From: Rhodobacterales bacterium
GTDB lineage: Bacteria; Pseudomonadota; Alphaproteobacteria; Rhodobacterales; Rhodobacteraceae
DNA: 64,000 nt
Assembly (NCBI GenBank): GCA_002747035.1
Contig: PDRZ01000018.1
Span: 1-64,000 of the forward strand
Direction of reading: 5' to 3'
The notes below the pieces were generated by a model that was not told the DNA's origin, made no database searches, and was given only the letters and a program-made list of their open reading frames with translations. Made by a program: the position numbers and the translations under genes. This document shows, in pieces, positions 10,792 through 62,319 of the stretch (its first letter is position 1; every line of letters starts with the position of its first letter).

Positions 10792-10838
10792 AAAGCGTGT
10801 CCGGTTATTGTTGGATCACAGCAATAGCTGGAAACGCT
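10792..10838. repeat. Intergenic palindromic repeat, core type B
   Basis: AAAGCGT at the left and ACGCT at the right enclose a core containing ATTGTTGGATCACAGCAAT. This is the reverse-complement match of the copy at 62267-62319, with a few substitutions. See the finding on the repeat family. Confidence 0.75.
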
Positions 10839-10859
10839 CACACGCCTGATATGTTGCGC

Positions 10860-10905
10860 GGCGTTTCCACATCATGCTGAGTCAACGTAATGCGGAAACG
10901 CTTTA
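10860..10905. repeat. Intergenic palindromic repeat, core type A, containing the cbiZ stop codon
   Basis: The repeat core GAGTCAACGTAATGC matches the copy at 59148-59198 (GTGTCAACGTAATGC), and the right arm GGAAACGCTTTA is intact. The left arm is slightly decayed (GGCGTTTCC). It lies 21 bases from the type B copy and reaches into the end of cbiZ. Confidence 0.75.
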
Positions 10906-11588
10906 TCGTCTTGCTCGTCACTGTTGGTCGCAGAGGTCGTTTCGGCGCTCAGGTTGGTGGACTTCCATTGCCGCGCCCCGTCCAGAACGGCGTCATAGAC
11001 GGCACGGCCGACGGTTTCCCCGATATCGGTGTGCAGCCCGCAATACCGGATGCCTCCCACCCGAGAGGCGACAGCCACGCAATCGGTTCCGGTGCCGGTG
11101 GCGATCCCCGGCGGCAGGTGCAACTGCGCATCCATCACCGCTGCGGTACGGGCCTGTACGGCGACGCTCATGGTTTCCAGCAACGCCGGCACCGTCAATC
11201 CAGCGTTGAGTTGCAGGGCCACATTGATCGTGCCCCAATCCTTGCCGCTGCGGTCCACCCGATGCCCGACCCGCTCGGCGTTGGAGAACCCGACCGTGGC
11301 CACGGCATGGGCGCGAATGTCGCCGATGACAGCCGTTTTTTCCGTGAAACAGTTGATATCGCGCGAGGTCAGGAAGGTGACCGCATCCTCCGCATTCCGC
11401 GCGCGCAGTTCATCGGCCAACCAGGCGTCAACATCCAGATCGGGGGGCAGATCGGCATCGCGCACCTCGCGCCACAGGATGCGCCGCGCCTGCACCAGAC
11501 CGGGACGATTCACCGCCCAGCTCAACACCTGACTCTCGGTGCCGAGGTCTAGTTCAAGCCAGGGCCGCTCCAAGGTCACGCGTCTCAT
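10872..11588 (-). CDS. cbiZ: Adenosylcobinamide amidohydrolase CbiZ
   Basis: This protein of about 238 residues reads from the ATG at 11588, which has a strong GGAGGTGAT. It has the CbiZ pattern: AVNRPGLVQARRILWREV, FLTSRDINCF, then TVGFSNAERVG, INVALQLNAGLT, GTGTDCVAVAS and YCGLHTDIGETVGRAVYDA. CbiZ cuts the aminopropanol arm from adenosylcobinamide or incomplete cobamides to give adenosylcobyric acid for rebuilding. It is the last gene of the riboswitch-controlled B12 uptake operon. The final dozen residues (DDKAFPHYVDSA) are encoded by an intergenic repeat. Confidence 0.92.
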   Translation of the reverse strand: MRRVTLERPWLELDLGTESQVLSWAVNRPGLVQARRILWREVRDADLPPDLDVDAWLADELRARNAEDAVTFLTSRDINCFTEKTAVIGDIRAHAVATVGFSNAERVGHRVDRSGKDWGTINVALQLNAGLTVPALLETMSVAVQARTAAVMDAQLHLPPGIATGTGTDCVAVASRVGGIRYCGLHTDIGETVGRAVYDAVLDGARQWKSTNLSAETTSATNSDEQDDKAFPHYVDSA

Positions 11589-12343
11589 CGGATCACCTCC
11601 AGCGGTTGAAAGACCGGCCCCTGATCGGTTGTCTGATACCAGGCTGTGATGCCGAAAACCTGCGCCAGTCGCGCGGGAGTCAACACCTCGTCCGGGGCAC
11701 CGTCGGCGACCACCCCGCCATCGCCCAACAGGATCAGGCGGGTGCAATGGCGCACGGCCAGCCCCAGATCGTGCAGCGAAACAAGCAGGGATTTCCCCTG
11801 TTGCGCAAGCGATGCGAAGGTCTCCATCGTCGCAATCTGATGGGCCGGATCAAGCCCGGCAATGGGCTCATCCGCAATCAGCAGCGGTCCGCCCTGTGCC
11901 AGCGCCCGCGCAATCAGAACCCGCGCCTGCTCGCCCCCTGACAGTTGCGTGGCGGCGCGGTGGCGCATGTGGCTCAGCTCCATACGGTCCAGCGCGGCGT
12001 CAACTTTGGCGCGATCCTCGGACGTCGGATTACGCAACGATCCCATATGCGGGGTGCGTCCCAGCATCACCACGGTTTCCACCGTCACCGGCCATGCAAT
12101 CTCGCGCGCTTGCGGCATCCACGCGGCCAGTCTGGCCCGGTCCGGATCGGGAAGATCGGCCAGGCTGCTTTGCCCCGCGAAAGGCAACAGGCCAAGCACC
12201 GCGCGCATCAGCGTGGTTTTGCCCGCGCCGTTGGGTCCGACCAGCCCGACAAACTCGCCCGCACCTATGTCAAACGACACATCGCGGAACACATCGCGCC
12301 CGCGCAGCGCAACAGAGATGTTCGAGACGCTTAAAAGACTCAT
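11585..12343 (-). CDS. btuD: Cobalamin ABC transporter ATP-binding protein BtuD
   Basis: This protein of about 252 residues reads from the ATG at 12343 (MSLLSVSNISVAL, with AAGGAG before it). It has Walker A (GPNGAGKTTLMRAV), a signature at LSGGEQARVLIARALAQ, Walker B (LLIADEPIAGLD) and the switch His (SLHDLGLAVRH). It powers vitamin B12 import with the BtuC encoded upstream. The ATG overlaps the btuC stop (ATGA). Upstream in-frame residues are a chance extension. Confidence 0.94.
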   Translation of the reverse strand: MSLLSVSNISVALRGRDVFRDVSFDIGAGEFVGLVGPNGAGKTTLMRAVLGLLPFAGQSSLADLPDPDRARLAAWMPQAREIAWPVTVETVVMLGRTPHMGSLRNPTSEDRAKVDAALDRMELSHMRHRAATQLSGGEQARVLIARALAQGGPLLIADEPIAGLDPAHQIATMETFASLAQQGKSLLVSLHDLGLAVRHCTRLILLGDGGVVADGAPDEVLTPARLAQVFGITAWYQTTDQGPVFQPLEVIR

Positions 12344-13326
12344 ATCCGCTCCTTGCGCAGTTTCAGGATCAGATGCAGGAACAGCGGTGCCCCGATCAGG
12401 GCTGTCAGAACCCCAAGTTTCAGATCGCGCGCGGGCAGGATGATCCGGACAGCGATGTCTGCGCACAACAGCAACGCCGCCCCGCCAAGACCCGACGCCC
12501 AGAGCAACCGCGACGGATGCGCGCCCACCAGCGGACGCAGAATATGCGGCACGACCAGACCGACAAACCCGATGGCCCCCGCCACCGCAGTTCCCGCCCC
12601 CACGACACAGGCCGTCCCGATGACCAGCTGCAATCGCAGACGGTTGATATGGATGCCCATAGCCTGTGCCACATCCTCGCCCAGCGTCAGCGCATCAAGC
12701 CCCCGTCCCAGTGTGGCCAGCAGAACCCAGCCCAGGATCATGAAGGGCAGCGCCAGCCAGACATGGGTCATCGACCGGTCCGCCAACGATCCCATCATCC
12801 AGAACACGATCTCGTTGGCGGCAAAGGGATTGGGCGACAGGTTCAGCACCAGCGAGGTCAGCGCCGCCGCCAGCGCCGACACCGCGATCCCGGCCAGGAT
12901 CAAGGTCAGCGACGTACCGCGCGGTCCGGCCAGAAGCATCACCATCACCACGCCCAACAGCGCCCCGGCAAGCGCGGCTAAAGGCAGACCCATCGCAAAC
13001 GCGCCCGCAAGGCCGGTATGCAGTGCAAGGACCGCGCCCAGCGCGGCCGTACCCGACACCCCGATCAATCCCGGCTCGGCCAGCGGATTGCGCAGATAGC
13101 CCTGCATTGCGGCCCCGGCAAGCCCCAGGCTGGCACCGATCATCATCGCCAACAGCGCCCGCGGCAGCCGGATTTCACGCATGACAAGCGTGATCGGCCC
13201 GCCGTCTCCGCCAATCAGCGCCGCAAGGCTTTGTTGCATACCAAAACCCGCAGGCCCGATCAGCAACGACGCCAGAAACAGCGCGGCCACCAACACAACC
13301 ATCACGATCGCCAAACGCCTCATCAC
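12340..13326 (-). CDS. btuC: Cobalamin ABC transporter permease BtuC
   Basis: This 328-residue FecCD-family permease has about ten membrane segments and the hallmarks REIRLPRALLAMMIGASLG, MQGYLRNPLAEPGLIG and GAIGFVGLVVPHILRPLVG. It imports cobalamin delivered by BtuF. The start overlaps the btuF stop and the stop overlaps the btuD start. Confidence 0.94.
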   Translation of the reverse strand: MMRRLAIVMVVLVAALFLASLLIGPAGFGMQQSLAALIGGDGGPITLVMREIRLPRALLAMMIGASLGLAGAAMQGYLRNPLAEPGLIGVSGTAALGAVLALHTGLAGAFAMGLPLAALAGALLGVVMVMLLAGPRGTSLTLILAGIAVSALAAALTSLVLNLSPNPFAANEIVFWMMGSLADRSMTHVWLALPFMILGWVLLATLGRGLDALTLGEDVAQAMGIHINRLRLQLVIGTACVVGAGTAVAGAIGFVGLVVPHILRPLVGAHPSRLLWASGLGGAALLLCADIAVRIILPARDLKLGVLTALIGAPLFLHLILKLRKERI

Positions 13327-14177
13327 CGCTCTCCCGTCAGAGCCCGCCGGGCCGTGGACAGGGTTTCGATGGCGCGCAGCACATAGGGTGTGCCACAGAC
13401 CCAGTCCTGATCACTCATAACAGCACCACGCCGGTTTTCGCGCAGGGCCTGTACCACCGGATGATCCAGAATCTGTTCGGACCGCGACGTGCCCGGGTAG
13501 CGGCGCGCGGTGATCACAATGTCCGGGTTGGCCATCGCCAGAACCTCAAGCGGCAGTTTGCGCAACGCGGCAAGCCCGGTTTCCCCGGCGGCATTGGCGA
13601 ACCCGGCGGCCAAAAGGATGCGCCCGGCCAGCGTGGCATCACCTGCCGAATAGCCGTTGGCATAGTAGAGTATTGCGCGTGGATTGCGCCCTGTTTCCGC
13701 GCCAAAATCCGCAAGCCGCGCTTCAAAATCGGCCCGCATGGTCTGCGCCTTGCCAATCTGGTGCAACGCCGCGCCCATCTGCTCGATCCGTTCCCCGACA
13801 TCCTCCAGCGAATTGGCCGGCTGGAAGCGCACAACCGGAATGCCCAACCTCCGCAACAGGCGCACCGTGGCCTGCCCCGAATAGGCCCCAGCAAGCACCA
13901 GATCAGGCTGCATCAGATAAATCTCTTCCGCCAGTCCATGGTTGATAACATAGCCTGCGGCTTCTTTCGTCATCGCCGAGCTCCGTGGGTCCAGCGCAAT
14001 ATGCGACACGGAATGAAGCTGTCCCGGCCCGGCAAGCAACATCGCAAGCTGATCGGTACACAGGTTCATCGACACCACACGCCGTGGCGGCGGCCCCGTG
14101 GCGTCCTCTGCCACCGCCAAATCCGCCGCGATCCCAAAAGAAACCGCGGCGGCAAAAGCGATGCGCTTAAAACTCAC
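13323..14177 (-). CDS. btuF: Periplasmic cobalamin-binding protein BtuF, GTG start
   Basis: This protein of about 284 residues has a signal peptide (MSFKRIAFAAAVSFGI, cleavage after ADLAVA). Its mature part has the BtuF fold: RRVVSMNLCTDQLAMLL, MQPDLVLAGAYSG and WVCGTPYVLRAIETLS. The GTG at 14177 gives a normal signal peptide and overlaps the btuB stop by ten bases, which suggests coupling. A clear Shine-Dalgarno is absent, and GTG at 14180 is an alternative. Confidence 0.9.
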   Translation of the reverse strand: MSFKRIAFAAAVSFGIAADLAVAEDATGPPPRRVVSMNLCTDQLAMLLAGPGQLHSVSHIALDPRSSAMTKEAAGYVINHGLAEEIYLMQPDLVLAGAYSGQATVRLLRRLGIPVVRFQPANSLEDVGERIEQMGAALHQIGKAQTMRADFEARLADFGAETGRNPRAILYYANGYSAGDATLAGRILLAAGFANAAGETGLAALRKLPLEVLAMANPDIVITARRYPGTSRSEQILDHPVVQALRENRRGAVMSDQDWVCGTPYVLRAIETLSTARRALTGER

Positions 14178-15978
14178 CACGAAGCCCGAAATACACGGAC
14201 CGGCCCGGCTGATTGTAGCCGCCCACTGTCTCGTAATCCTCGTCGGTGAGGTTCTCGATCCGAAGGTAGGCCTTGGCGTTGTCGGTGAGCTCCAGATCCA
14301 AGCCGACATTCAGCAATGTGTGATCACCCACCTTGTTGGCCGCCGGAGCAAAGGCACTGGGCAGCACATTGGCAACGTGTTGCAGTTCGATATTGCCCGA
14401 CAGCCGCGGCGAAATCCGGGCGTCCAGACCCAGAACCGCCGAATGCATCGGAACCTGAGCCAGCCGGGTACCGGCGTTCCTGACATCGGTATAGGTGTAG
14501 TTTCCGTAAAGCTCGTAGCGATCCGACAGCGCATAGCGACCCGAAAGTTCGATCCCCTTGCTCACGGTTGTACCCGGCCGTTGGGTATATCCGCCCGGAA
14601 GCGGCCCAAGCCAGCCATCGGGATCGAAATATTGGATCAGGTCGTCGACCTCGGAGTAAAACAGCGTGCCGCGCAGCGACCCGTTCGCGCCCAGTTGATG
14701 CTCGATACCAAGTTCGGCACTGCGACTCTTTTCCGGGTTCAACGCGGGGTTGCCGCCAAACGGACCGTATAGTTCGTTAAGCGACGGGGCGCGGAACCCG
14801 GTGGACACCAACGCGCGCAGGTTGGTCGATGCCCCCACATGCCAGACCGCACCCATACGCCCGCTCCAATGCCCGCCAAAAAGCGAATGGTCGTCATAAC
14901 GCGCGGCCAGCGACAAATCAAAATCGCCGGGCTGCAACAACACCTCGGCAAAGGCCGAGCGCGTCTCGGCACTGCCGATGGTTTTGTAGGTTTCTTCGGT
15001 CCGGTCCAGCCCAAAGACCAGCGTCGCCCCGCCCAGTTCAGCATTGGCAAGATAGCCAATCTGATTGCGTTCGCTGTCAAACGCGCTGGTGTAGGTCGAG
15101 GTGACGATATCGCGCTCGGATTCGAACCTGCTATAGCTCAGCGTATGAGTCACGGCCCCTGTCACCACGTCGGCAAAGACACGGGCACCGCGCTGCGTTG
15201 TTGTCCCGGCTCCGCTGGGGTCGAAGGCATTGTTGTCGAAATCATAAGAAAGATCACGGTACAGAACCGCCCCCCCAACCGTGACCGTATCGCTCAGCGC
15301 ATAGCGCAGCGTCAGGTTCAGTTGGGTCTGATCCATCCCGTCGGCTTCGGTATCGCTGCTGAGGGCCGAAAAGCCGTCACTTTTCACCCGCGCATAGTTC
15401 AGCGCCACTTCACCGTTGTCGTCCATGTATCCCAGCATGAGTGACCCGGAATAGGTGTCATAACTGCCAATTTCGGTCTTGGCCACGGCCGAGAAACCCA
15501 TTTTGCGTGGCCGGGACGAGGTGATATCGACGACACCCCCCACGGCTTCGGACCCATACAATGCCGATTGTGATCCCTTTAGCACTTCGACCCGTCCGAC
15601 ACCGACACCGGCCAGCCCGCCGAAATTGAACTGGGTCTGGGTGCTCGACGCATCCGACACATCGATCCCGTCAATCCGCACCCCGATATAGCGGGCTGGC
15701 AGGCCCCGAATCGACAGGCTGCTATTGGTGCCAAGCGGACCGGACTGACTGAAACTCACCCCGGGCAGCCGCGACAGTGTCTGCGATAGCGGCCTGGTAT
15801 CATCCTCAAGCGCGTCCTCTTCGAGGATATCAACAGTGGCGGCGGTACGGCTTTGTGGCAGCGGCGTCAGGCTGCCGGAAATAACGATTGTGTCCAAATC
15901 GGTCACGTCTTCGGCAAATGCCGGTGTCCCGAGAGTTACAGCAGAGGTGGCAAGTGCTGCCTTTGCAAGATGCTTCAT
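14167..15978 (-). CDS. btuB: TonB-dependent vitamin B12 outer-membrane receptor BtuB
   Basis: This receptor of about 603 residues reads from the ATG at 15978 (MKHLAKAALATSAVTLG, signal cleavage after TPAFA), with AAGGA before the start. The DTIVISG segment is the TonB box, followed by a plug (LSRLPGVSFS, SIRGLPARYIGVRIDGI, LYGSEAVGGVVDI). The barrel closes GRSVYFGLRGEF. It lies directly downstream of a cobalamin riboswitch, which makes B12 the expected ligand. Confidence 0.95.
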   Translation of the reverse strand: MKHLAKAALATSAVTLGTPAFAEDVTDLDTIVISGSLTPLPQSRTAATVDILEEDALEDDTRPLSQTLSRLPGVSFSQSGPLGTNSSLSIRGLPARYIGVRIDGIDVSDASSTQTQFNFGGLAGVGVGRVEVLKGSQSALYGSEAVGGVVDITSSRPRKMGFSAVAKTEIGSYDTYSGSLMLGYMDDNGEVALNYARVKSDGFSALSSDTEADGMDQTQLNLTLRYALSDTVTVGGAVLYRDLSYDFDNNAFDPSGAGTTTQRGARVFADVVTGAVTHTLSYSRFESERDIVTSTYTSAFDSERNQIGYLANAELGGATLVFGLDRTEETYKTIGSAETRSAFAEVLLQPGDFDLSLAARYDDHSLFGGHWSGRMGAVWHVGASTNLRALVSTGFRAPSLNELYGPFGGNPALNPEKSRSAELGIEHQLGANGSLRGTLFYSEVDDLIQYFDPDGWLGPLPGGYTQRPGTTVSKGIELSGRYALSDRYELYGNYTYTDVRNAGTRLAQVPMHSAVLGLDARISPRLSGNIELQHVANVLPSAFAPAANKVGDHTLLNVGLDLELTDNAKAYLRIENLTDEDYETVGGYNQPGRSVYFGLRGEF

Positions 15979-16109
15979 ATCTTTGTCCTTCCATGCGCTC
16001 TGTGGCGCGAACGACCATGTAAATTGACTGCGAAGGATTTGAATGCGCAGCCGGTGAAATGCCACCGCTACGGAAGGTCCGTTGCCCAATACGCGCCCCG
16101 CGTTCGGAC

Positions 16110-16300
16110 AGGGTGATCACCTCGGCAGGTCTCCTGACTTGCAGGTCAACGCTTGGCCGGGTCTTCCCACCACGCTTTGCGTGGCAGTGACTTTGGTCCG
16201 GCTTCGCTCACCGCTTACAGTTGCGGGGGCAGTCACGGAATTGGCACCTTATGGCTACACCGCACCGTATTCCCTATTATCCGGATGATATTCCTCCGGA
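16110..16300 (-). ncRNA. Cobalamin (B12) riboswitch controlling the btuBFCD-cbiZ operon
   Basis: On the minus strand the classical B12-box elements appear in order: AATAGGGAATACGGTG, then GGTGCCAATTCCGTGACTG, CCCCCGCAACTGTAAGCGG, a variable arm with CACGCAAAGCGTG, GGGAAGACCCGGCCAAG, and GACCTGCAAGTCAGGAGACC near 16125-16145. It ends about 130 bases before the btuB start. B12 binding should reduce translation or transcription of btuB. The outer borders are approximate. Confidence 0.93.
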
Positions 16301-16479
16301 CCGAAGCGAGTCTTTGCTTAGCCCAGGATGGGTTTCGGGGAAAGTGTATTATGACGAAATCGCGGTGCCATCACGCGACTATGCGATCGACGACACAACG
16401 ATTTCGCGCCGCATCCGTTCATAATTCCGACGGATGGAGCCCCCGGCAACCTCTCGCAGGTCTCAGCCGCGCGACACAT

Positions 16480-16518
16480 AAAAAACCGCGCCAAGGGGTC
16501 CCTGGGCGCGGCCATTTT
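16480..16518 (-). terminator. Rho-independent terminator after ndk
   Basis: On the minus strand CCGCGCC and GGCGCGG pair around an AGGGACCCCTT loop region, followed by seven T. It lies about 20 bases after the ndk stop. Confidence 0.85.
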
Positions 16519-16540
16519 TCAAATCCTGGAAACAGGCGGC

Positions 16541-16963
16541 TTAGCCGACCAGTTCCAGACCCGAGAAGAAAAAGGCGATTTCGGTTGCGGCGGTTTCCGG
16601 CGCATCCGAGCCGTGGACCGAGTTTTCACCGATCGACAGGGCGAATTCCTTGCGGATGGTGCCTTCGTCGGCTTCGGCGGGGTTGGTCGCGCCCATGACT
16701 TCGCGGTTCTTCGCGATGGCGTTTTCACCTTCCAGAACCTGCACCACGATCGGCTCGCTGATCATGAATTCACACAGTTCGTCAAAGAAGGGGCGCTCTT
16801 TATGCACACCATAGAATTCCTGGGCCTGGGCCAGAGTCAGTTGGATGCGCTTGGACGCAACGATGCGCAGGCCGGCCTCTTCGAATTTCGACGCGATGAC
16901 GCCGGTCAGGTTGCGTTTGGTGGCGTCCGGTTTAATGATGCTGAAAGTGCGCTGAATGGCCAT
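16541..16963 (-). CDS. ndk: Nucleoside-diphosphate kinase
   Basis: This 140-residue protein moves phosphate between nucleoside tri- and diphosphates. It has [17 protein letters not shown] at the N-terminus, the family block NVMGAT-like ([12 protein letters not shown]), and the active-site His in ENSVHGSDA (about residue 117). The ATG at 16963 has AGGAG eight bases before it. The same frame stays open far upstream, but that part is antisense to the MFS gene and is not coding. Confidence 0.97.
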
Positions 16964-17049
16964 GATGAGGCTCCTGTTTGCGTGAAAGATGGTTTGGCGC
17001 CCCAGTAGCACGCGTTCTAGCGTTTGAAAAGCGGCGAATGCGGTGCCCC

Positions 17050-18231: not shown

Positions 18232-20074
<1,843 letters not shown>

Positions 20075-20105
20075 GCGGATTTCAACTATAGATCGCCTGA
20101 TACGA

Positions 20106-20138
20106 TGGGCCGGGGCATTTCCCGGCCTATTTTGTTTG
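20106..20138 (+). terminator. Rho-independent terminator after eno
   Basis: GGCCGGG and CCCGGCC pair around GCATTT, followed by TATTTTG, about 33 bases after the eno stop. Confidence 0.85.
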
Positions 20139-43163: not shown

Positions 43164-43526
43164 GTTATCTGCCCGTTACCCGGTTGCCTGGCCGAAACGG
43201 GTCAGTTGCATTTACCGCTTTGTGCAAGCGCCTTTTGCGCATACTCCACCCGTTTGGACAGCGACAACGGGCGCGGCCATTTGCACAGCCCCTAGTCCTC
43301 GCGTGACAGGTACAGCTGCGCAGGTCGACACGGGAAAAGAACCCCGGCCAGCCCAACAGCGTCGGCCAGTGACATCAGGAACAGAAAGCGTTAAAGCGTT
43401 ACCTTAACCTGAGACAGAGAAAAGGGCGAACGCTTTATCCATCCAAACCCGGCAGATCGCAGCGTTGTATTGCCTGTCAGATCGCGGATAATGTCCCGAT
43501 GACACACCATGTTACAGGAGCGAGCT
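43164..43526. other. Gene-free region between the SDR gene and mmcQ
   Basis: About 360 bases hold one palindromic repeat (43391-43438). No coding sequence is seen on either strand. Confidence 0.55.
43391..43438. repeat. Intergenic palindromic repeat, core type C
   Basis: The outer arms TTAAAGCGTT and AACGCTTTA enclose a core with CTTAACCTGAGACAGAG and AAAAGGGCG. The same core recurs at 49938-49980. Confidence 0.7.
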
Positions 43527-43883: not shown

Positions 43884-44319
43884 AGCCGTCGCGCCGCACC
43901 CTCGCCCGTCCTTACGTCCGGTCTCGGAGTTTTGCAGCGGCCCGCAACGCCTTGCTCTGTTCCTGCCTCCTGACCCTGTCTGCCCGCTGCGATGGGGGTC
44001 GCCCGGTGGCGAAACACTCCCCTGCCACAATTGACCGCAACAAATCCCGCCTTTTTGCGAGGATTGATGCCCGATGGGAAACCTGACGGGCTGTTGGCAG
44101 GGTCTGACTCTCTGTTCAATGCTCTCAAAGGGGATTTCCGGCCTCATTCCTGCCACATGTCGCCGGTTTCGCCGCAATTCGAACAGGTTCGTCGAAAACT
44201 TACCTTAAATGCCGCCCAATCCTGCCGCCGTTCGACTGTATCCATATTGGAAACAAGCCCGGCAAAATTCGGGAAATCAGGGAAAACCCCTATCGAGCAA
44301 ACAGAAAGTTGCAGGGCCA
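43884..44319. other. Gene-free region upstream of the RTX/Hint gene
   Basis: No gene is seen in these 436 bases. It presumably carries the promoter of the large secreted protein, but I cannot recognise a specific site. Confidence 0.5.
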
Positions 44320-46785
44320 ATGGCGACGATGAACACAGGACTGGGTGGACCGGCAGGATACGGCGAGAACGTCTTTTCCTCGACCGCCAAGGCCACGGGC
44401 AACAATGATGACGGGGCGGTGGCGGTTGACGTCACCTCGGTTTTCGGTGCCTCTGGTATCGACTTCTACGGCACGTCCTACACAACGATCTATATCAACT
44501 CAAACGGGGTGATCAGCTTTGGCGCGGCGCAAACCGGCTATTGGCCTGCGCTGGCATCGACCTCGACCCCCCTGCTGGCACCGTTCTGGGCCGATATAAA
44601 CATCAACTCCGGCGGCGAGATCTATTGGGATATTGATCCGGCAAACGGAGCGATCACCATCACCTGGGATGGCGTGGCCCCCTATTCAGGCAGCGGTACG
44701 AATTCGTTTCAGGTGGTGCTGACCTCGACCGGATCGGGCGGGTTTGACGCCGAATTCATCTATGAAGACATCCAATGGACCTCGGGCGGCAGTGGCACGG
44801 CCCAGACCGGGTTCACCGATGGCGGATCCAACGACACCACGTTCGAAGGGTCCGGCAATGCGACGATCCTGTCGAACTATGAAAACAACGATTTCGACAA
44901 TGGTGACCCCAACGGGGTGTATTCAATCAGCGTGATCAATGGCGAACCCTATGCGGGCGACGGGATTGTTCAGGGCACCGGGGCCGCCGAGCTGATCGAC
45001 GGTACATATACGGATGCCCAGGGCGACGGGATCGACAGTGGGTTTGGCACCGGCGCGGACGGCTATGACGACAGCGTCACCGCAGGGGCCGGCAATGACA
45101 CCGTCTTTGGTCAGGCCGGTGGTGACACGCTGGAAGGTGAGGCCGGGAATGATGTGCTTTACGGCGATTTCAACGGCACACCCCCGACCCTGTCGGAAGA
45201 GCTGAACTGGAACACGCTTGGCGCGGACGGCACCAGCCTTGCCAGCGGGGTGAGCACCTCGACCGGGCAGATGGAGGTGTCGGTTTCCTTCACCGATGAT
45301 GGCAACAACAACGCCACCTACCGGGTGGAAACCAGCAACACGCAATATGTCGGCACAGGCGAGCCGTTTTCCACGTCTTCGTCCTTGCGTCTATTTGGTA
45401 CCGGCGACGCGGATACCTCGACCACCACAATCAACTTTGCGGCGTCTACATCTATCTATGCGGATGAGGCAGAGAATGTCACCTTCCGTATCAACGATCT
45501 GGATTGGGGTAACGGCAATCACCAGGACCGGGTGACGGTCAACGCCTATGACGCCGATGGCAATGCGGTCGCAGTGTCACTGACGCCCGGGGCCGGGGAC
45601 AGCCTGTCGGGCAATACCGTAACGGCCGGGACAACGGCAGAATCCCCCAGTGACGCGGGCGGATCGACTCTGGTTGATATCGCGGGTCCCGTCGCCCGGA
45701 TCGAAATCATCTACTATAACGCGCTGGCGGGGAACCCGGCCACCCACGCGGTGTATGTGACCGATCTGCATTATGACGTGGTCGCTTCGGCCAATGTCGG
45801 CGGCGACGATTCGCTGGATGGCGGAGCGGGCAATGATGCGCTTTATGGGGAAGATGGCGACGATACCCTACTGGGCGGAACCGGGCTTGATACCCTGACA
45901 GGGGGCGCGGGCGACGACCTGCTCTACATCGCACAAGGAGATATCGCCACAGGGGATGGGGGTGAAGACCTGTTCATCGTCACCGACTATGGCGACGCGG
46001 GCGCGGGCACGATCACTATCGACGGGAGCACCACGGATGAACCGGGGGGGGATACGCTTGACCTGAACGGGTTGGCGGATCGCACCACGCTGTCCATGAC
46101 CGCCTCGGCCATCGACCCGGATGGGTTTGACGGCTCGGTCACGCTGACGGACGGAACCGTTCTGACCTTCTCGAATATCGAGAACATCATATGTTTCACC
46201 GCCGGCACCCGGATCCTGACCGAACGCGGCGAAGTGGCGATCGAACAGCTGAAGGCCGGGGACAAGGTGATGACCGCTGACCACGGCGCACAACCGATCC
46301 GCTGGATCGGGCAAAGCACAGTGCCCGCGATGGGCAAACTGGCCCCGATCTTTGTTCCCGCCCACCGGTTGCCGGGGGCGAAACGTGGGCTTCTGGTGTC
46401 GCCCCAGCACCGATTTGCCTTTGGCCACTGGCAGGCGGAACTGATGTTTGGTGAAGACGAGGTCTTTGTGTCCGCTACCCATATGGAAGACGGTCATGAC
46501 GTTCTGCGTATGCCCTGTGCCTCGGTGACCTATTTCCATATCCTGCTGGACCGGCACGAAGTCATCTTTGCCGAAGGGGCGGCAACCGAAAGCTTCCATG
46601 CGGGTGAAACCGGGATGCAGGCCCTCAGCGGACCCGCGCGCGAAGAGCTTTATAAAGCGATGCCGGAGTTGCGCGACGATCTTGGGGCGCACGGACCAAC
46701 CGCCCGTCGGGTGCTGCGCAAACACGAGGCCGCGCTGTTGCTGCCCCATCTATCGCCGCAACCGGATTGGCAAATGGTGGCCTGA
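44320..46785 (+). CDS. Secreted RTX protein with NIDO-like N-terminus and C-terminal Hint domain
   Basis: This 821-residue acidic protein starts MATMNTGLGGPAGYGENVFS and has no signal peptide, as expected for type I secretion. Residues 30-190 resemble a NIDO-type domain (TTIYINSNGVISFGAAQTG, PLLAPFWADININSGG). Ca-binding RTX repeats (GAGNDTVFGQAGGDTLEG, GAGNDALYGEDGDDTLLGG) lie near residues 250-290 and 490-545, with a middle beta-sandwich-like stretch. A Hint/hedgehog-intein domain begins at Cys625 (CFTAGTRILTERGEVAIE). Roseobacters carry many such proteins. The gene's role in attachment is inferred. Confidence 0.88.
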   Translation: MATMNTGLGGPAGYGENVFSSTAKATGNNDDGAVAVDVTSVFGASGIDFYGTSYTTIYINSNGVISFGAAQTGYWPALASTSTPLLAPFWADININSGGEIYWDIDPANGAITITWDGVAPYSGSGTNSFQVVLTSTGSGGFDAEFIYEDIQWTSGGSGTAQTGFTDGGSNDTTFEGSGNATILSNYENNDFDNGDPNGVYSISVINGEPYAGDGIVQGTGAAELIDGTYTDAQGDGIDSGFGTGADGYDDSVTAGAGNDTVFGQAGGDTLEGEAGNDVLYGDFNGTPPTLSEELNWNTLGADGTSLASGVSTSTGQMEVSVSFTDDGNNNATYRVETSNTQYVGTGEPFSTSSSLRLFGTGDADTSTTTINFAASTSIYADEAENVTFRINDLDWGNGNHQDRVTVNAYDADGNAVAVSLTPGAGDSLSGNTVTAGTTAESPSDAGGSTLVDIAGPVARIEIIYYNALAGNPATHAVYVTDLHYDVVASANVGGDDSLDGGAGNDALYGEDGDDTLLGGTGLDTLTGGAGDDLLYIAQGDIATGDGGEDLFIVTDYGDAGAGTITIDGSTTDEPGGDTLDLNGLADRTTLSMTASAIDPDGFDGSVTLTDGTVLTFSNIENIICFTAGTRILTERGEVAIEQLKAGDKVMTADHGAQPIRWIGQSTVPAMGKLAPIFVPAHRLPGAKRGLLVSPQHRFAFGHWQAELMFGEDEVFVSATHMEDGHDVLRMPCASVTYFHILLDRHEVIFAEGAATESFHAGETGMQALSGPAREELYKAMPELRDDLGAHGPTARRVLRKHEAALLLPHLSPQPDWQMVA

Positions 46786-46909: not shown

Positions 46910-46954
46910 GGCGTTTATCCAGACGCGCGCAGCGCGCGCGTCTGGATAAACGCC
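46910..46954. repeat. Perfect 21-bp palindrome with a 3-base loop
   Basis: The arm GGCGTTTATCCAGACGCGC extends to 21 bases and is repeated exactly in reverse complement after AGC (46910-46930 and 46934-46954). It sits in the gap between the convergent RTX and glycosyltransferase genes. It could be a bidirectional terminator without a T run, or a repeat element. Confidence 0.6.
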
Positions 46955-49937: not shown

Positions 49938-49980
49938 TAAAGCGTTCGACCTTTAACCTGAGACGGGGAAAAGGGCGATC
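49938..49980. repeat. Intergenic palindromic repeat, core type C (right arm lost)
   Basis: TAAAGCGTT then CTTTAACCTGAGACGGGG and AAAAGGGCGA match the copy at 43391-43438, but the right arm AACGCTTTA is missing. Confidence 0.65.
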
Positions 49981-50010
49981 TCAGCGCGACATTTATGTGT
50001 TTCGCGCGTC

Positions 50011-50043
50011 CTGCCAAAAATCCATGAGTCAGGTTTTTGGCAG
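50011..50043. repeat. AT-rich inverted repeat
   Basis: CTGCCAAAAA (50011-50020) and TTTTTGGCAG (50034-50043) are exact inverted copies around TCCATGAGTCAGG. It lies about 30 bases right of the type C repeat. Confidence 0.6.
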
Positions 50044-50298
50044 CACGCTTCAAGATCAGGGTTGGGCCATGCCTGTCCCCGTATCCTCAACCAGTGTCCT
50101 CAATCCGCAATCCTGGTCCCGGTGAGGGTCAGGGAATAAAACGTCACGGCCTGTCTCCGGTTGGTGTCAGGCCCGCCAGACCGCAGAGATAAGACCCGGA
50201 CCTGTTCCGATGACCCGAACCCCCGCAGGCCAGGCCCGCGCCAATAGCCCACGGCGGCAAAACCGAAATTGGGGGCTTTATCTTCTCAACAGACACCT

Positions 50299-52213: not shown

Positions 52214-53565
<1,352 letters not shown>

Positions 53566-53617
53566 ACGCCCCACCTTTCCTTCCGGAGTGTGAGGGACAC
53601 GAACCCAAGGGGGGCAT

Positions 53618-54544: not shown

Positions 54545-55080
54545 ACGACCTTTCCGCCACCCGGCTTTGGCTGATGCGCATCGGCTTTGCCCTGCTTGCC
54601 ATGACCATCCTGTTTTTCCAACTGCTGCCGCTGGACACCACCCCGGCGCGGTTTGCCGGGCCGGACCTGTTGATGGGGTTTGCCTATGCCTGGGTTCTGC
54701 GCCGACCGGAATACGTGCCGGTCCTGCTGGTGGCGACGCTGGTGCTGCTGGGCGATTTCTTTCTGGGCCGCCCGCCCGGGCTTTGGTCTGCGCTGATGCT
54801 GATCGGGTTTGAATCCCTGCGCGGGCGCGAACCGACCCTTCGCAACATGCCTTTTTCGGTGGAATGGGCCACCGTTGCCACCGTGGTGGTTGGGGTGTTT
54901 CTGGCCTACCGGCTGGTTCTGACCATGATGCTGATTGATCTGCCCGGCACCGGGCTTTGGCTCATGCAGATGGTTTTGACCGTGCTGACCTATCCGCTTT
55001 GGGTTGCGCTCTCACGCTTTGTATTCGGCCTGCGCAAGGCCACGCTGGGCGAGGTGAACGCCCTTGGCGAACGGCAATAG
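54541..55080 (+). CDS. mreD: Cell-shape membrane protein MreD
   Basis: This 179-residue protein has five hydrophobic segments and the MreD block RFAGPDLLMGFAYAWVLRRP and DFFLGRPPGLWSALMLIGFE. The ATG overlaps the mreC stop (ATGA). It helps place the wall-synthesis complex. Confidence 0.93.
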   Translation: MNDLSATRLWLMRIGFALLAMTILFFQLLPLDTTPARFAGPDLLMGFAYAWVLRRPEYVPVLLVATLVLLGDFFLGRPPGLWSALMLIGFESLRGREPTLRNMPFSVEWATVATVVVGVFLAYRLVLTMMLIDLPGTGLWLMQMVLTVLTYPLWVALSRFVFGLRKATLGEVNALGERQ

Positions 55081-55098
55081 CGGGGGGCAGCAGCAACC

Positions 55099-57054: not shown

Positions 57055-58190
57055 GCTATCTTGAGTATAACGTCAAACACGTGCCCACCGGGTTGCGCAA
57101 GGTATTCGCGCTGAACTGGCCATTGCTCTTGCTGCTGCTGGCGGTGGCCTCGATCGGGTTCCTGATGCTCTATTCCGTGGCCGGGGGGTCCTATTCCCCG
57201 TGGTCAGAGCCCCAGATGAAACGGTTCGGGCTTGGCCTGGGGCTGCTTTTTGTCGTGGCCATGGTGCCGATCTGGTTCTGGCGCAACGTGTCGGCGGTGG
57301 CCTATGGCGGCTCTCTGCTTTTGCTGTTGCTGGTTCCGCTCATTGGCGATGTCGGGATGGGGGCGCAACGTTGGATCGACCTTGGGTTCATACGCCTGCA
57401 ACCGTCCGAGTTGATGAAGATTACCCTCGTCATGTTCCTGGCCGCCTATTACGACTGGTTGCCGATCAGCAAAGTGTCACACCCGCTCTGGGTGGCATTG
57501 CCGGTGGCGATCATCCTGTTGCCTACCGCGCTGGTTCTGCAACAGCCCGACCTTGGCACCTCGATCCTGCTGATGACAGCGGGGGCCACGATCATGTTCC
57601 TGGCCGGGGTGCACTGGGCCTATTTCGCCGCTGTGATCACCACCGGGGTGGGCATGGTTACGGCCGTATTTGAAAGCCGGGGCACCACGTGGCAGTTGCT
57701 CAACGACTATCAGTATCGCCGGATTGACACTTTCCTTGATCCGTCCGCCGATCCGCTTGGGGCGGGCTATCACATCACCCAGTCCAAGATCGCACTCGGG
57801 TCCGGGGGATGGACCGGGCGGGGGTTTATGCAGGGCACGCAAAGTCGGCTGAACTTCCTGCCGGAAAAACACACCGATTTCATCTTCACCACCCTGGCCG
57901 AAGAGTTCGGCTTTCTCGGGGCGATCTCTCTTCTGGGGCTTTACCTGCTGATCATCGTATTCTGCGTCTCCACCGCGCTGTCGAACGCGAATCGTTTTGC
58001 CTCTCTGCTGACATTGGGCATTGCCACCACGTTTTTCCTGTTCTTTGCCGTGAACATGTCGATGGTCATGGGGCTGATCCCGGTTGTGGGCGTGCCGTTG
58101 CCCCTGGTCAGCTATGGTGGCTCGGCCATGCTGGTCTTGCTGGTCGCCTTCGGCCTTGTTCAATCCGCCCATGTCCACAAACCGCGCTAA
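57051..58190 (+). CDS. rodA: Rod-shape SEDS glycosyltransferase RodA
   Basis: This 379-residue SEDS protein has about ten membrane segments and the blocks GMGAQRWIDLGFIRLQPSEL, LLPTALVLQQPDLGTSI and RLNFLPEKHTDFIFTTLAEE. It polymerises lipid II with PBP2. The ATG overlaps the mrdA stop (ATGA). Confidence 0.96.
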   Translation: MSYLEYNVKHVPTGLRKVFALNWPLLLLLLAVASIGFLMLYSVAGGSYSPWSEPQMKRFGLGLGLLFVVAMVPIWFWRNVSAVAYGGSLLLLLLVPLIGDVGMGAQRWIDLGFIRLQPSELMKITLVMFLAAYYDWLPISKVSHPLWVALPVAIILLPTALVLQQPDLGTSILLMTAGATIMFLAGVHWAYFAAVITTGVGMVTAVFESRGTTWQLLNDYQYRRIDTFLDPSADPLGAGYHITQSKIALGSGGWTGRGFMQGTQSRLNFLPEKHTDFIFTTLAEEFGFLGAISLLGLYLLIIVFCVSTALSNANRFASLLTLGIATTFFLFFAVNMSMVMGLIPVVGVPLPLVSYGGSAMLVLLVAFGLVQSAHVHKPR

Positions 58191-58221
58191 TCCCCGCTCA
58201 TCCCCCCGTCAAAGACACCCT

Positions 58222-59151
58222 ATGCTCAACATCCTCTTTGCCGCCCGCCCGGAACGCTGGGCCATCTACGAAACCCCGCTGCGCGCGGCGCTGGACGGTG
58301 AGGGTCTGACCTATACCCTCGCCACCGAGATGGCACCCGAAAAGGTGGATTACATCGTCTATGCCCCCAATTCCGAGCTTCAGGATTTCACCCCCTATAC
58401 CCGCACCAAAGCGGTGCTGAACCTCTGGGCCGGGGTCGAGGCGATTGTGGGCAACCGAACCCTGACCCAGCCGCTGACCCGCATGGTCGGCGGCGGGCTG
58501 AGTGAAGGTATGGTGGAATGGGTCACCGGCCACGTGCTGCGCCACCATCTGGGGATGGACGCCCATATCGTGAACCCGGACCGGATATGGCAACCGCGCG
58601 TTCCGCCGCTGGCCGCCGAACGTCCGGTCACGATCCTTGGACTGGGGGAACTGGGTCTGGCCTGTGCCCATGCCCTGACCGCGCTTGGCTTTCCTGTCAC
58701 CGGCTGGTCCCGCAGCCCGAAAACCGTCGACGGGATCACCACCTCCCATGGGGCCGACGGGCTAACCGCCGCCCTGACCGACGCCGAAATCGTGGTGCTG
58801 CTTTTGCCCAACACCCCGGCGACAGAGAATACGCTGAACGCCCGTACGCTGGCGCTGACTGCGCCCGGAGCCTTTGTCATCAATCCGGGCCGGGGGGCGT
58901 TGATTGACGATGACGCCTTGCTGGCCGCGCTGGACAGCGGTCAGATCGCGTATGCCACGCTGGACGTTTTTCGGGTGGAACCCCTGCCCGCCGATCACGG
59001 GTTTTGGTCCCATCCAAAGGTGACGGTCACGCCCCATATCGCGTCTGAAACCCGCCCCGGCCCGGCGGCCCGGGTCATTGCCGACAACATCGCCCGCGCC
59101 GAACGGGGGGTGCCGCTTTTGCACGTGGTTGATCGCGCGGCAGGGTATTAA
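58222..59151 (+). CDS. ghrA: Glyoxylate/hydroxypyruvate reductase GhrA
   Basis: This 309-residue D-2-hydroxyacid dehydrogenase has an NAD(P) fold (TILGLGELGLACAHAL) and the catalytic Arg, Glu and His blocks INPGRGALIDDDALLAAL, DVFRVEPLPADHGFW and VTPHIASETRPG. It starts at the ATG at 58222. Its TAA stop is the first part of a palindromic repeat. Confidence 0.92.
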   Translation: MLNILFAARPERWAIYETPLRAALDGEGLTYTLATEMAPEKVDYIVYAPNSELQDFTPYTRTKAVLNLWAGVEAIVGNRTLTQPLTRMVGGGLSEGMVEWVTGHVLRHHLGMDAHIVNPDRIWQPRVPPLAAERPVTILGLGELGLACAHALTALGFPVTGWSRSPKTVDGITTSHGADGLTAALTDAEIVVLLLPNTPATENTLNARTLALTAPGAFVINPGRGALIDDDALLAALDSGQIAYATLDVFRVEPLPADHGFWSHPKVTVTPHIASETRPGPAARVIADNIARAERGVPLLHVVDRAAGY

Positions 59152-59198
59152 AGCGTTTCCGCATCACGCTGTGTCAACGTAATGCGGAAACGCTTTAA
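59148..59198. repeat. Intergenic palindromic repeat, core type A, containing the ghrA stop
   Basis: TTAAAGCGTTTCCGCAT at the left and ATGCGGAAACGCTTTAA at the right are exact inverted copies (17 bp) around CACGCTGTGTCAACGTA. The ghrA stop TAA overlaps the left arm. Confidence 0.85.
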
Positions 59199-59350
59199 TA
59201 CCTGCGGCTGCCCTGTCCCGGTTAACCTTTGCGCCCCGGTGCCGGGCATGGCCCTGGCCGATGCCGCATCGGTGCCGCCCGGATGCGCAAAAGTCACCCC
59301 TCCTTACGGCGGGTCTCCTGATCCCGTTAACGCAGCGCACGGTGGCGAGG

Positions 59351-60139
59351 TTATTTCAGGATGGGCGGTTTCGCCGGGTCGCTTCCCGGAGCGGGGCGCA
59401 CCGCCTCTTGCGGTGCAACGGGTTGGGGGATTTCATACCACAGCCCAACCTTTTCAAGCCGGATCACCTCCTGATCCGCGAGGTCGAAAAAACCCACATC
59501 CAACCGGGTATCCTCCCCCGAAAACACCAGCGCCTCGTTCACCGAGCGGGCCAGCGGTTCATGGACCCGCGGCGCGGCGTCTACCACCCCAAGGAACAGC
59601 CCCTCGGCCCCGTCTTCGTATGTAATTTCAACAAGGTATCCGCCTTTGGCCAACCCGGCGGCCTGGGCCAGCTTGGTTTGCAATGCGCCCAACAAAGCTT
59701 CGCTTACCCCGCCCGGTGCCCGGATTTCCAGGGCCCTAGCCATCGTTTCCTCGGGTCCCGGGGCGAGCGTATCGGTCAGCCACGCCATCGCCTCGGGGGG
59801 CAACAGGATGGACGAGGGTGCCACCTCAAGATTGACGCCAAGCCCGATTCCCTGCCCCGCCAGCATCCCGGCAAGCGCCCGACCGGAAAGCGCCGCATAG
59901 GGCGCGGGTTTGCCCACAAACGTGGCCAGCCGCTCTTCTTTGTCGAACGCCAGAACGAAAGAATTATCTGATACATCAAACACTTCCGGCGTGATATTGT
60001 CGCCCTGCGGATCTTCTGCCAGCAACAGGAACAGTTCGCAATCGGCCAGGTTTTCGTAAAACCGCATCCGCGCGGAATCGTTTTCGGGTGTGGCCTCCAT
60101 GGCCGCATGGGCCATATCCAAAGGGGTCTGTTCGCTCAT
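59351..60139 (-). CDS. SseB-family protein
   Basis: This 262-residue protein has the SseB N-terminal fold: RMRFYENLADCELFLLLAED, AFDKEERLATFVGKPAPYAA and IGLGVNLEVAPSSILLPPEA, and an acidic C-terminal part. Its function is poorly known. The start overlaps the stop of the uracil-DNA-glycosylase-like gene, so the two may be co-transcribed. Confidence 0.8.
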   Translation of the reverse strand: MSEQTPLDMAHAAMEATPENDSARMRFYENLADCELFLLLAEDPQGDNITPEVFDVSDNSFVLAFDKEERLATFVGKPAPYAALSGRALAGMLAGQGIGLGVNLEVAPSSILLPPEAMAWLTDTLAPGPEETMARALEIRAPGGVSEALLGALQTKLAQAAGLAKGGYLVEITYEDGAEGLFLGVVDAAPRVHEPLARSVNEALVFSGEDTRLDVGFFDLADQEVIRLEKVGLWYEIPQPVAPQEAVRPAPGSDPAKPPILK

Positions 60140-60720
60140 GCGCTCGAAGCCTTTCGAATTTCTTTACGAAGCGCGGGCAGAACCTCGGCTTCGAACCACG
60201 GGTTTTTCTTCATCCATGCCGTATTGCGCCAGGACGGATGAGGCAAGGGGAACAGCCCGGGCGCATGGTCGCGCCATCCGCGCACCGTGTCCGTGACCGA
60301 CCGTTTCGAAGAAAGGTGATATTTCTGGGCATACCCGCCCACAAGCAGGGTCAGGCGAATATGCGGCAGCGACGTCAAAACCCTGTCGCGCCACGTTTTG
60401 GCACAAATGGGCGGCGGAGGCAGGTCCGCTCCGCGCCGGTATCCCGGGAAGCAAAAGGCCATGGGGACAATGGCAATCCGGTCCTTGTCATAAAAGTTTT
60501 CGCGGCTCAATCCGGTCCAATCCCGCAACCGGTCGCCCGATGGGTCGTCAAACGGAATGCCGCTGTCATGCACCCGCATCCCCGGGGCTTGCCCCGCGAT
60601 CAGGATCCGCGCCGAGGGGCGAAACCACGCCACCGGGCGCGGGCGATGCGCGGTTTCAGTGGCTTGAAATCGGTCGGCGCAAATCCGGCAAGCCCTTATG
60701 GCATCGTGTAAATTTTTCAT
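60136..60720 (-). CDS. Uracil-DNA-glycosylase-family protein
   Basis: This 194-residue protein starts at MKNLHDAIRACRICADRF and has the family blocks ILIAGQAPGMRVHDSGIPFD and DRLRDWTGLSRENFYDK near residues 37-75. It also has YHLSSKRSVTDTVRGW and PHPSWRNTAWMKKNPW near the C-terminus. The CxxC near the N-terminus may hold a metal cluster, but not all four Fe-S cysteines are seen. It is divergent from the arsR gene. Confidence 0.85.
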   Translation of the reverse strand: MKNLHDAIRACRICADRFQATETAHRPRPVAWFRPSARILIAGQAPGMRVHDSGIPFDDPSGDRLRDWTGLSRENFYDKDRIAIVPMAFCFPGYRRGADLPPPPICAKTWRDRVLTSLPHIRLTLLVGGYAQKYHLSSKRSVTDTVRGWRDHAPGLFPLPHPSWRNTAWMKKNPWFEAEVLPALRKEIRKASSA

Positions 60721-60742
60721 GCTTCTCCCTAGCGCGGCGGAC

Positions 60743-60766
60743 TTATTTCTACAACCATCGAAATAA
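60743..60766. promoter_or_regulatory. Inverted repeat operator between the glycosylase-like gene and arsR
   Basis: TTATTTC (60743-60749) and GAAATAA (60760-60766) are exact inverted copies around ten bases. A second small palindrome, ATTTCTAGAAT (60793-60803), is just before the arsR ATG. ArsR-type repressors bind such AT-rich symmetries to control their own operon. Confidence 0.55.
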
Positions 60767-60804
60767 ACTGGACAGACGGACATTGTTTCTATATTTCTAG
60801 AATC

Positions 60805-61149
60805 ATGAAACATTCAAACCTGACCGATCTTGACCTGACCCGTGCCGCCTCGACCTTTGCCGCCCTTGGCAGCGAACAGCGGCTTGCCGTACTGCGCGCG
60901 CTTGTGCGCGCCGGGCCCGAAGGCTTGCCCATCGGCGCTCTGGGTGCGCGCACCGGCGTGACCGGTTCGACCCTTACCCATCACATGAAGATCCTGACCC
61001 AGGCCGGGTTGGTCAAACAGGAACGTCAGGGGCGCAAAATCATCTGTGCCGCTGTGGCCTATGACGAACTGCACGGCCTGTCTGAATTCCTCCTGCGCGA
61101 ATGCTGCGCAGATTCGTCCACCCCTCATGAAAGTCACAATCATGGCTGA
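60805..61149 (+). CDS. ArsR/SmtB-family metalloregulator
   Basis: This 114-residue winged-helix repressor has the HTH block AALGSEQRLAVLRALVRAG and TGSTLTHHMKILTQAGLVKQ. It carries a cysteine in KIICAAVAY, a CC pair near the end (RECCADS) and a His-rich tail (HESHNHG). These could bind metal or metalloid. The stop overlaps the permease start by eight bases. Confidence 0.9.
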   Translation: MKHSNLTDLDLTRAASTFAALGSEQRLAVLRALVRAGPEGLPIGALGARTGVTGSTLTHHMKILTQAGLVKQERQGRKIICAAVAYDELHGLSEFLLRECCADSSTPHESHNHG

Positions 61150-62170
61150 ACTTTCCCAATCACCGCGGGGGGTTAGCCTTCGCAAGCTGGACAAGGCCTG
61201 GGGCGCGCTCGCGCTCATCCTGCTGTTGGTTCTGGTTCTGGACCCGCCGCGAATCTGGCCCACCGTGACCTTTGGTGTCAACGCCCTGGTCTCTACCGCG
61301 CCATTCATTGTCTTTGCGGTTCTGGCCGTGGCCTACCTCAAGGCGACCGGGGCTGAAACCCTTCTGGCCAAGGCGTTCGAAGGGCGTGAAACCCGGATGA
61401 TCCTCCTTGCGGCCCTGTTGGGCGGGCTATCGCCCTTCTGCTCCTGCGAGGTCATTCCCTTTATCGCTGCCATGCTGGCCGTGGGGGCTCCCTTGTCTGC
61501 CGTCATGGCGTTCTGGCTTGCCTCTCCGCTGATGGATCCGGCCATGTTCGCGATCACTTCGGGAACGCTGGGCGCGGATTTCGCCGTGGCGAAACTGCTG
61601 TCGGCGCTTGGCATCGGCATGTTTGGCGGGTTTGGGACCATGTTGCTCAAATCTTCACCCGTCTTTGCCGATCCTTTGCGCGAAAAACCCGCCGCGGGGG
61701 GCTGTTGTGGCGTAGAAAAACCGTTTTCGGGCAAGCCGGTTTGGACGTTCTGGTCCGAGGCCAACCGGGTGGAAACCTTTCGCAAAGCCGGACTGGAAAA
61801 CGCCGTGTTTCTGCTGAAATGGCTGGCGCTGGCCTATGTGATCGAGGCGCTGATGATCCACTATGTGCCCGCCGAATGGATCGCTTCGGTTCTTGGGGGC
61901 GAGGGGGTGCGCCCGATCTTCCTTGGCGCTCTGGTGGGGGCTCCGGCCTATCTTAATGGCTATGCCGCCGTGCCGCTGGTTGACGCGCTTCTGGCCCAGG
62001 GCATGGCTCCGGGCGCGGCCATGTCCTTTGTCATCGCCGGGGGGGTGTCCTGTATCCCCGCAGCCATCGCCGTCTGGGCGCTGGTCAAACCCCGGGTGTT
62101 TGCCGCCTATATCGGTTATGCCGTGCTGGGCGCGATGATCGCCGGCATGGCCTGGCAATCGGTGGCGTGA
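61142..62170 (+). CDS. Permease of the YraQ/ArsP (DUF318) family
   Basis: This 342-residue membrane protein has about eight transmembrane segments. It carries the family block SPFCSCEVIPFIAAML (CxC near residue 100), a CC in GGCCGVEKPFSG and GVSCIPAAIAVWAL. ArsP-type proteins export organoarsenicals. The ArsR neighbour fits a metal or metalloid stress role, but the substrate is unproven. It starts at MAELSQSPRGVS. Confidence 0.85.
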   Translation: MAELSQSPRGVSLRKLDKAWGALALILLLVLVLDPPRIWPTVTFGVNALVSTAPFIVFAVLAVAYLKATGAETLLAKAFEGRETRMILLAALLGGLSPFCSCEVIPFIAAMLAVGAPLSAVMAFWLASPLMDPAMFAITSGTLGADFAVAKLLSALGIGMFGGFGTMLLKSSPVFADPLREKPAAGGCCGVEKPFSGKPVWTFWSEANRVETFRKAGLENAVFLLKWLALAYVIEALMIHYVPAEWIASVLGGEGVRPIFLGALVGAPAYLNGYAAVPLVDALLAQGMAPGAAMSFVIAGGVSCIPAAIAVWALVKPRVFAAYIGYAVLGAMIAGMAWQSVA

Positions 62171-62206
62171 CCTGCGAAACCCTGCCTTATGCAACGTCAA
62201 TTGAGA

Positions 62207-62233
62207 CAAAGGCGACTTTCCGAGTCGCCTTTG
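62207..62233 (+). terminator. Terminator-like hairpin after the permease gene
   Basis: CAAAGGCGACT and AGTCGCCTTTG are exact inverted copies around TTCCG. GTCTTGTCTCTTT follows. Outer GAGAC/GTCTC bases can extend the stem. Confidence 0.75.
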
Positions 62234-62266
62234 CGGTCTTGTCTCTTTAGCATTCGGCGCAAACCA

Positions 62267-62319
62267 CTAAAGCGTTTCCAGTTCTTGCTGTGATCCAACA
62301 ATAACTGGAAACGCTTTAG
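62267..62319. repeat. Intergenic palindromic repeat, core type B
   Basis: CTAAAGCGTTTCCAGTT and AACTGGAAACGCTTTAG are exact 17-bp inverted copies around a core with TGTGATCCAACAAT. This is the best copy of type B. Confidence 0.85.

Follow-up and report, generated by a model that had tools for sequence, protein, structure and literature searches.

Intergenic palindromes of a Rhodobacterales genome as probable two-hairpin miniature elements of the IS630 type

The repeat unit of pneumococcus (RUP) is a 107-bp intergenic element present in 108 copies, associated with TA and with ends like those of the insertion sequence (IS) IS630-Spn1, which has been proposed to mobilise it (PMC2229807, in the accessible part of its text). 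Here we compare with it a set of intergenic palindromes from a Rhodobacterales bacterium, found in a stretch of 64,000 nucleotides (contig PDRZ01000018.1, positions 1 to 64,000; hereafter the window) of the assembly GCA_002747035.1 (G000; 2.52 Mb in 47 contigs, 77.7% complete). We find that these palindromes are parts of two elements, BA and CD, for which RUP is by analogy the closest described class. The likeness covers length (about 107 versus 113-115 bp), a copy number of around 100, intergenic position, a TA target and possibly IS630-like ends; the pneumococcal element differs in sequence and host, and no plan of two hairpins plus a spacer is given in the accessible part of its description (PMC2229807). 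For BA and CD, we found no partner IS whose ends match theirs. ERIC and Correia/NEMIS elements are likewise non-autonomous, 100-160 bp long, with TA at their ends and stem-loop transcripts, but their sequences are different and the same partly accessible source does not state a two-hairpin-plus-spacer plan for them (PMC2229807). Judging from sequence, we file BA and CD under a known class, the IS630-type miniature inverted-repeat transposable elements (MITEs), within which the conserved two-hairpin plan would be what sets them apart. The rhizobial intergenic mosaic elements (RIMEs), reportedly described by Osteras in 1995 as intergenic and about 108 bp long with two large palindromes, would share this plan with BA and CD, whose units of similar length (about 110 bp) also pair two long palindromes.

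We find that the palindromes known as types A and B together make up a single element, BA, one half each, and that type C is half of a second element, CD, whose other half is a D hairpin missed by the original prediction. Models of A, B and C run with nhmmer on a sample of 454 kb (the window and 20 further stretches of G000) produced 43 hits. Later counts exclude two of these, fragments scoring only 8.6 and 8.7 bits, one of which is the cut-off start of a B hairpin that holds a nested CD unit. The flanks of the sample copies give the order of BA as tip, reversed B, conserved spacer, A, tip, and seven of the nine C copies open a unit that closes with a D hairpin, the other two being solos. Both elements read TAAAGCG-hairpin-spacer (22-24 nt)-hairpin-CGCTTTA, about 115 bp for the whole unit; from AAAGCG to CGCTTT, five BA units measure 113-114 bp, and of six CD units five measure 113 bp and one 111 bp. 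A search of G000 with one BA copy found at least 39 places where the match covers 101 or more of 116 bases, and one partial copy besides (40 of 139 first-look candidates scored, the query itself counted), and a search with one CD copy found at least 40 places spanning at least 110 of 115 bases (40 of 87 candidates scored, the query again counted). BA and CD are short, gene-less, high-copy units that lie mostly between genes.

The original prediction had listed six separate copies in the window with common outer arms and exchangeable interiors. All six places do hold palindromes, and shuffled sequences and a reversed control show that they are not chance: the arm pattern AAAGCGTT-N10-40-AACGCTTT gives four overlapping matches at three places in the window and none in 100 shuffles, and across G000 it gives 30 matches, or 29 distinct places once the pair at 43385/43393 is merged, with none for the reversed control. 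The copies are spread across the genome and not limited to the window. Sorted by hand, these 29 places comprise 22 of type A, five of type B, one of type C and one chimera of A and CD (at C11:37982, the sole one seen; C numbers denote contigs of G000, L numbers loci examined, and other G numbers comparison genomes). Long exact stems had also been claimed, and uninterrupted stems were confirmed at 59150 and 62269. The arms are exact on both sides in three of the six (43393-43436, 59150-59196 and 62269-62317); the other three deviate, 10792-10838 having AAAGCGTG and GGAAACGCTCA, 10860-10905 beginning GGCGTTTCC and 49938-49980 finishing GGGCGATCTC. Two of the listed copies, 10792-10838 and 10860-10905, form one 113-bp element at 10792-10904, and 49938-49980 opens another 113-bp element (49939-50051), whose second hairpin was overlooked. 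Exchangeable interiors proved a misleading description: A with B and C with D are fixed pairs of two full-length elements, and the singles look like deletion products. As side observations, doubled tips (AAAGCGTTAAAGCGTT) occur in at least three units (window 43385-43392, C23:143576 and C6:91048), and contigs C17, C26, C29 and C34 each begin 97-128 bases before a BA or CD copy, which looks as though the assembly had broken at the repeats.

We propose, with a probability of roughly 0.7, that BA and CD are non-autonomous, RUP-like MITEs of the IS630 type, two families of two-hairpin units of about 115 bp that were shortened to solo hairpins by deletion. Transposition by an IS630-type transposase would insert such units at TA and duplicate it, and target duplication can be read at two nested insertions. 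In the first, a CD unit at C40:221600-221712 lies within a B hairpin and reads AGC-TA-AAGCG...CGCTT-TA-TTGCTG, versus AGC-TA-TTGCTG in other B copies, with TA duplicated exactly. In the second, a unit of a third family lies within a C hairpin of G000 (L218) and reads CCTT-TA-AAGCG...CGCTT-TA-TCCTGAG versus CCTT-TA-ACCTGAG, with TA duplicated and one adjoining base changed. Together with genome-wide copies, constant tips and a tip shared with IS630, these insertions uphold the earlier idea of a non-autonomous mobile element with a constant terminus. Among 14 sample units that keep T and A at both tips, the context at the outermost tip (counted by hand) is TTAA in six, CTAG in three, CTAT in two, and TTAG, ATAG and CTAA in one each; Tenzen and Ohtsubo reportedly found in 1991 that IS630 prefers TA within CTAG. 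A syntenic relative (G094), the best for this stretch among 352 scored family genomes (42 more were unscorable) at 72-77% DNA identity, has no elements corresponding to those at 59150 and 62269; exact empty sites in it were rejected, its spacers being too diverged for junctions to be read. Separately, the stem of the solo A hairpin in the window continues beyond the element at 59136-59210 (GCAGGGTATT / AATACCTGC), which would fit insertion of the element into a pre-existing gene-end palindrome at its central TA.

Single hairpins look like deletion derivatives of these elements that keep both tips, an origin that we infer for most of them. From AAAGCG to CGCTTT, solo A measures 47 bp, solo B 49-50 bp and solo C 44-47 bp. 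In BA, GCGTTTCC opens each hairpin and its complement closes each, and loss between two such arm repeats would yield a solo A or a solo B with both tips; deletions at short repeats between the arms would likewise remove one hairpin and leave a solo. For instance, a solo in G301 (L219) tracks a full unit of the same genome (L220) as far as ...GCGGAACGC and then jumps to the terminal TTTA, the kind of junction expected from deletion at a repeat of 2-4 bp. Because loss of one hairpin leaves a solo with both tips, the palindromes have the appearance of one arm with three cores, a picture now superseded by the simpler anatomy of two 113-bp two-hairpin units, probable MITEs, and their shortened forms.

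The mover of these units is probably an IS630-type enzyme. A matching partner IS630 would carry the ends TAAAGCGTTTCC. In G000, DDE_3 (PF13358) matches four times, at three places, and every gene concerned is broken or partial. We examined the ends of IS630 elements at 16 loci, ten out of a set of 25 and six from plasmids; from the set of 25, further copies of one IS and the weak matches L163-L165 were set aside. The search required a start at TA and did not require (A/G)AGC. Inverted, TA-flanked ends 1049-1066 bp apart were found at ten of the 16. The tip TA(A/G)AGC, carried by many IS630 elements of Alphaproteobacteria, stands at both ends in eight of these (L155-L159, L167, L168 and L182, the ends of L167 and L182 being identical), and two have one deviating end (L154 and L183). 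One end of L155, from Martelella, is TAGAGCGTTTCAG, and one of L159 is TAAAGCGTCGAGC, close to both kinds of tip in BA and CD. A single end pair is weak evidence, because shuffled loci also give pairs; the evidence lies in the recurrent tip and length. Among the relics of G000, one transposase has its best plasmid matches in Paracoccus, Dinoroseobacter and Qingshengfaniella. Another relic, on contig C22 (L141, 1332-1696), joins N- and C-terminal pieces of an IS630 gene that enters the right half of a palindrome A, while the sequence at the left end of the relic, TAGAGTTGTTCCCGATCAGGCTGACTC, is similar to the left half. We rejected this locus as the native end of a partner IS, since its protein falls far short of the usual IS630 C-terminus and a fusion is likelier. 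A plasmid search with a BA sequence gave no match.

Several findings weigh against the proposal that BA and CD are IS630-type MITEs. We found no IS630 with these exact ends and no intact partner in the 77.7%-complete genome, and in four genomes with related palindromes (G009, G301, G370 and G045) nothing matched DDE_3 above the cut-off, although G301 has one match below it. Six of the 16 IS630 loci (L160, L161, L162, L169, L181 and L184) gave no ends of the kind described, shuffled loci yield some pair with at least 15 of 22 matches in 11 of 140 cases, and the tip common to IS630 and to BA and CD is beyond doubt for only 6-7 bases. One IS630 relic (L139) contains a BA unit flanked by CGCCA and TCTGG. 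Four homologues have CAT-CTGG at this point and lack the TA, and we rejected the site as a clean empty site; it is ambiguous, in a relic that has diverged, so that TA duplication stands at the two nested insertions and not here. Exact solo A hairpins outnumber solo B by 22 to 5 (two-sided binomial P 0.0015), an excess that symmetric deletion does not predict. Finally, the copies have diverged, with a mean pairwise identity of 0.889 among 16 full-length A copies and 0.903 among nine B copies and with identical pairs in only 2 of 120 and 1 of 36 comparisons; for this reason there was no recent burst, and recent movement is not supported.

Three other genera of the family (G370, G009 and G301) have elements built on the same two-hairpin plan, and it is found, more loosely, in Hyphomicrobiales. 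The pattern GCGTTTCC-N22-30-GGAAACGC has 89 matches in G000 (control 0), none in 35 of 36 other genomes of the family, and nine in G045, a member of another family. Among 394 family genomes, TAAAGCGTT-N20-45-AACGCTTTA matches 22 times in G000, six in G301, three in G009 and once in G370, and its reversed control once each in two others; with arms of GCGTTTCG, matches number 33 in G370, 13 in G009 and 11 in G301 (control 2, 1 and 0). A hand count gives seven exact hairpin pairs with a 22-nt spacer in G370 and two in G009. In G009 and G301, C-like hairpins again come with D-like ones, L220 is a two-hairpin copy of G301, and the nested unit L218 is a G370-type copy in G000. A wide pattern scan of genome contigs returned at least 118 stretches, many of them chance matches or other families; 27 were hand-picked for reading and later 16, of which 10 loci yielded 12 units. 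These 12 hand-picked units, from Hyphomicrobiales and some other alphaproteobacterial loci, start (C/T)A(A/G)AGCGTTTCC, and three of them end with the complement of GAGTC. The Hyphomicrobiales loci read TAGAGCGTTTCC-hairpin-spacer, with a second strong hairpin in 8 of the 12 units, a plan that would resemble that of RIMEs. An IS630 of Aminobacter (L154) has the ends TAGAGCGGTTC and TAGAGTCCTTC, and its likeness to the Hyphomicrobiales units is suggestive.

A bolder proposal, which we consider doubtful, is that the paired-hairpin units of this Rhodobacterales family and of Hyphomicrobiales, perhaps with the rhizobial RIMEs, form one ancient IS630 MITE superfamily whose ends must fold, the hairpin at each end, preserved as sequences diverged among genera, being part of recognition by the transposase or of a single-strand step. 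If true, fold-dependent ends would be an unexpected mode for a system of the Tc1/mariner type. Solo A units of 47 bp, if self-mobile as part of such a superfamily, would rank among the smallest mobile units, which we likewise hold to be unlikely.

A different explanation is that the palindromes act as RNA hairpins where genes end, as terminators or stabilisers, having been duplicated and then kept by selection, their mobility being old or minor. Their placement is in keeping with this: genes were predicted with a simple home-made codon-usage caller, and 40 of 41 hits lie outside them in a sample that is about 84% coding, the sole hit counted inside a gene being the A half at 10861, within the end of a cbiZ-like gene. 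Grouped by hand, 33 loci comprise 14 convergent, 14 tandem and five divergent spacers, and the 14 convergent loci compare with 19.7% of spacer bases in convergent spacers (P 0.002). The hairpins also persist across genera, and among the 32 pairs predicted in an alignment of ten units from three genera, four have two-sided changes; the covariation term is small (-0.36). The stems point the other way. They have no long T-run after them, and within G000 the A stems, taken along A itself, have 39 A.C mismatches but only 8 G.T, with few compensations; B stems have 16 A.C and 12 G.T, figures that are weak, and as A and B point opposite ways in the unit, the mismatches give no common RNA strand. A family described in Rfam was rejected, as no covariance model reached its gathering threshold at any copy in the window or in three further 20-kb stretches (L120, L121 and L135). 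Nested insertions with TA duplication indicate transposition. We therefore judge this explanation improbable and set aside, as the main reading, the RNA hairpin family that the original prediction had offered as an alternative. We read the gene-end placement as marking where insertions are tolerated; an effect on transcript 3' ends is possible, and the role of paired hairpins becomes testable.

Repetitive extragenic palindromic (REP) sequences, with the related BIMEs and REPINs, resemble BA and CD as high-copy intergenic palindromes that are often paired, and could suggest spread by a REP-associated tyrosine transposase (RAYT; Y1, IS200/IS605-like) acting on single-stranded hairpins. BA and CD have tips of TAAAGCG/CGCTTTA with TA duplicated at two sites and, by eye, no GTAG or CGTC foot, whereas REPs have GTAG or CGTC at one end (PMC3733652, accessible part). 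G000 has no Y1 transposase, with no match to PF01797 where the control matched in 5 of 14 genomes, and we rejected a REP/RAYT origin, which we regard as quite improbable. Least credible of all are binding or methylation sites of one protein, such as a nucleoid protein or CcrM, since GANTC, the CcrM methylation site, is present in the hairpin loops of 11 of 18 A copies but in a single one of 14 B copies and in none of nine C copies. Nor do the units look like operators, being 113 bp long with fixed halves, placed at gene ends and least often in divergent spacers (5 of 33 loci).

If BA and CD are IS630-type MITEs, a TA duplication and a candidate transposase family can now be offered for alphaproteobacterial intergenic palindromes, for which we found no mover in the literature searched. 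That literature, which left out most subscription papers and included the accessible parts of PMC3733652, PMC12306157, PMC5082802, PMC2573895 and PMC2245857, yielded no description of BA or CD units; within it, the earlier statement that no named match is known holds for the sequence, the class of RUP-like IS630 MITEs being already known.

Table 1. Elements, hairpins and an adjoining gene located in the window
Feature	Position	Strand	Remarks
Complete BA element (AAAGCG to CGCTTT, 113 bp)	10792..10905	+	88% to a BA copy over 2-116 of 116; left T of TA lost, right A at 10905
B hairpin of BA element	10795..10837	-	nhmmer 46.5 bits
23-nt spacer of BA element	10838..10860	+	from reading of the flanks
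A hairpin of BA element	10861..10901	+	nhmmer 55.2 bits; minus-strand cbiZ-like gene ends within it
cbiZ-like gene (PF01955)	10872..11747	-	BA element supplies the last dozen or so codons and the stop
Solo C hairpin, both tips	43393..43437	+	preceding 8 bp (43385-43392) are a second copy of tip AAAGCGTT
Complete CD element (AAAGCG to CGCTTC, 113 bp)	49938..50052	+	one tip base changed; 91% to a CD copy
D hairpin, unlisted in the original prediction	50006..50048	+	inverted self-match (C23:50006-50048)
Solo A hairpin, TA at both tips	59149..59197	+	left edge makes the TAA stop of gene 58084-59151
Solo B hairpin, TA at both tips	62268..62318	+	context CTAG

The window holds two further features apart from these elements. 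A separate 43-bp palindrome, GCGTTTATCCAGACGCGCGC...GCGTCTGGATAAACGC, lies at 46911-46953 after a reading frame at 44209-46785 and is outside the BA and CD family, and a cobalamin riboswitch (RF00174) lies at 16107-16320 on the minus strand, with a score of 126.8 bits.

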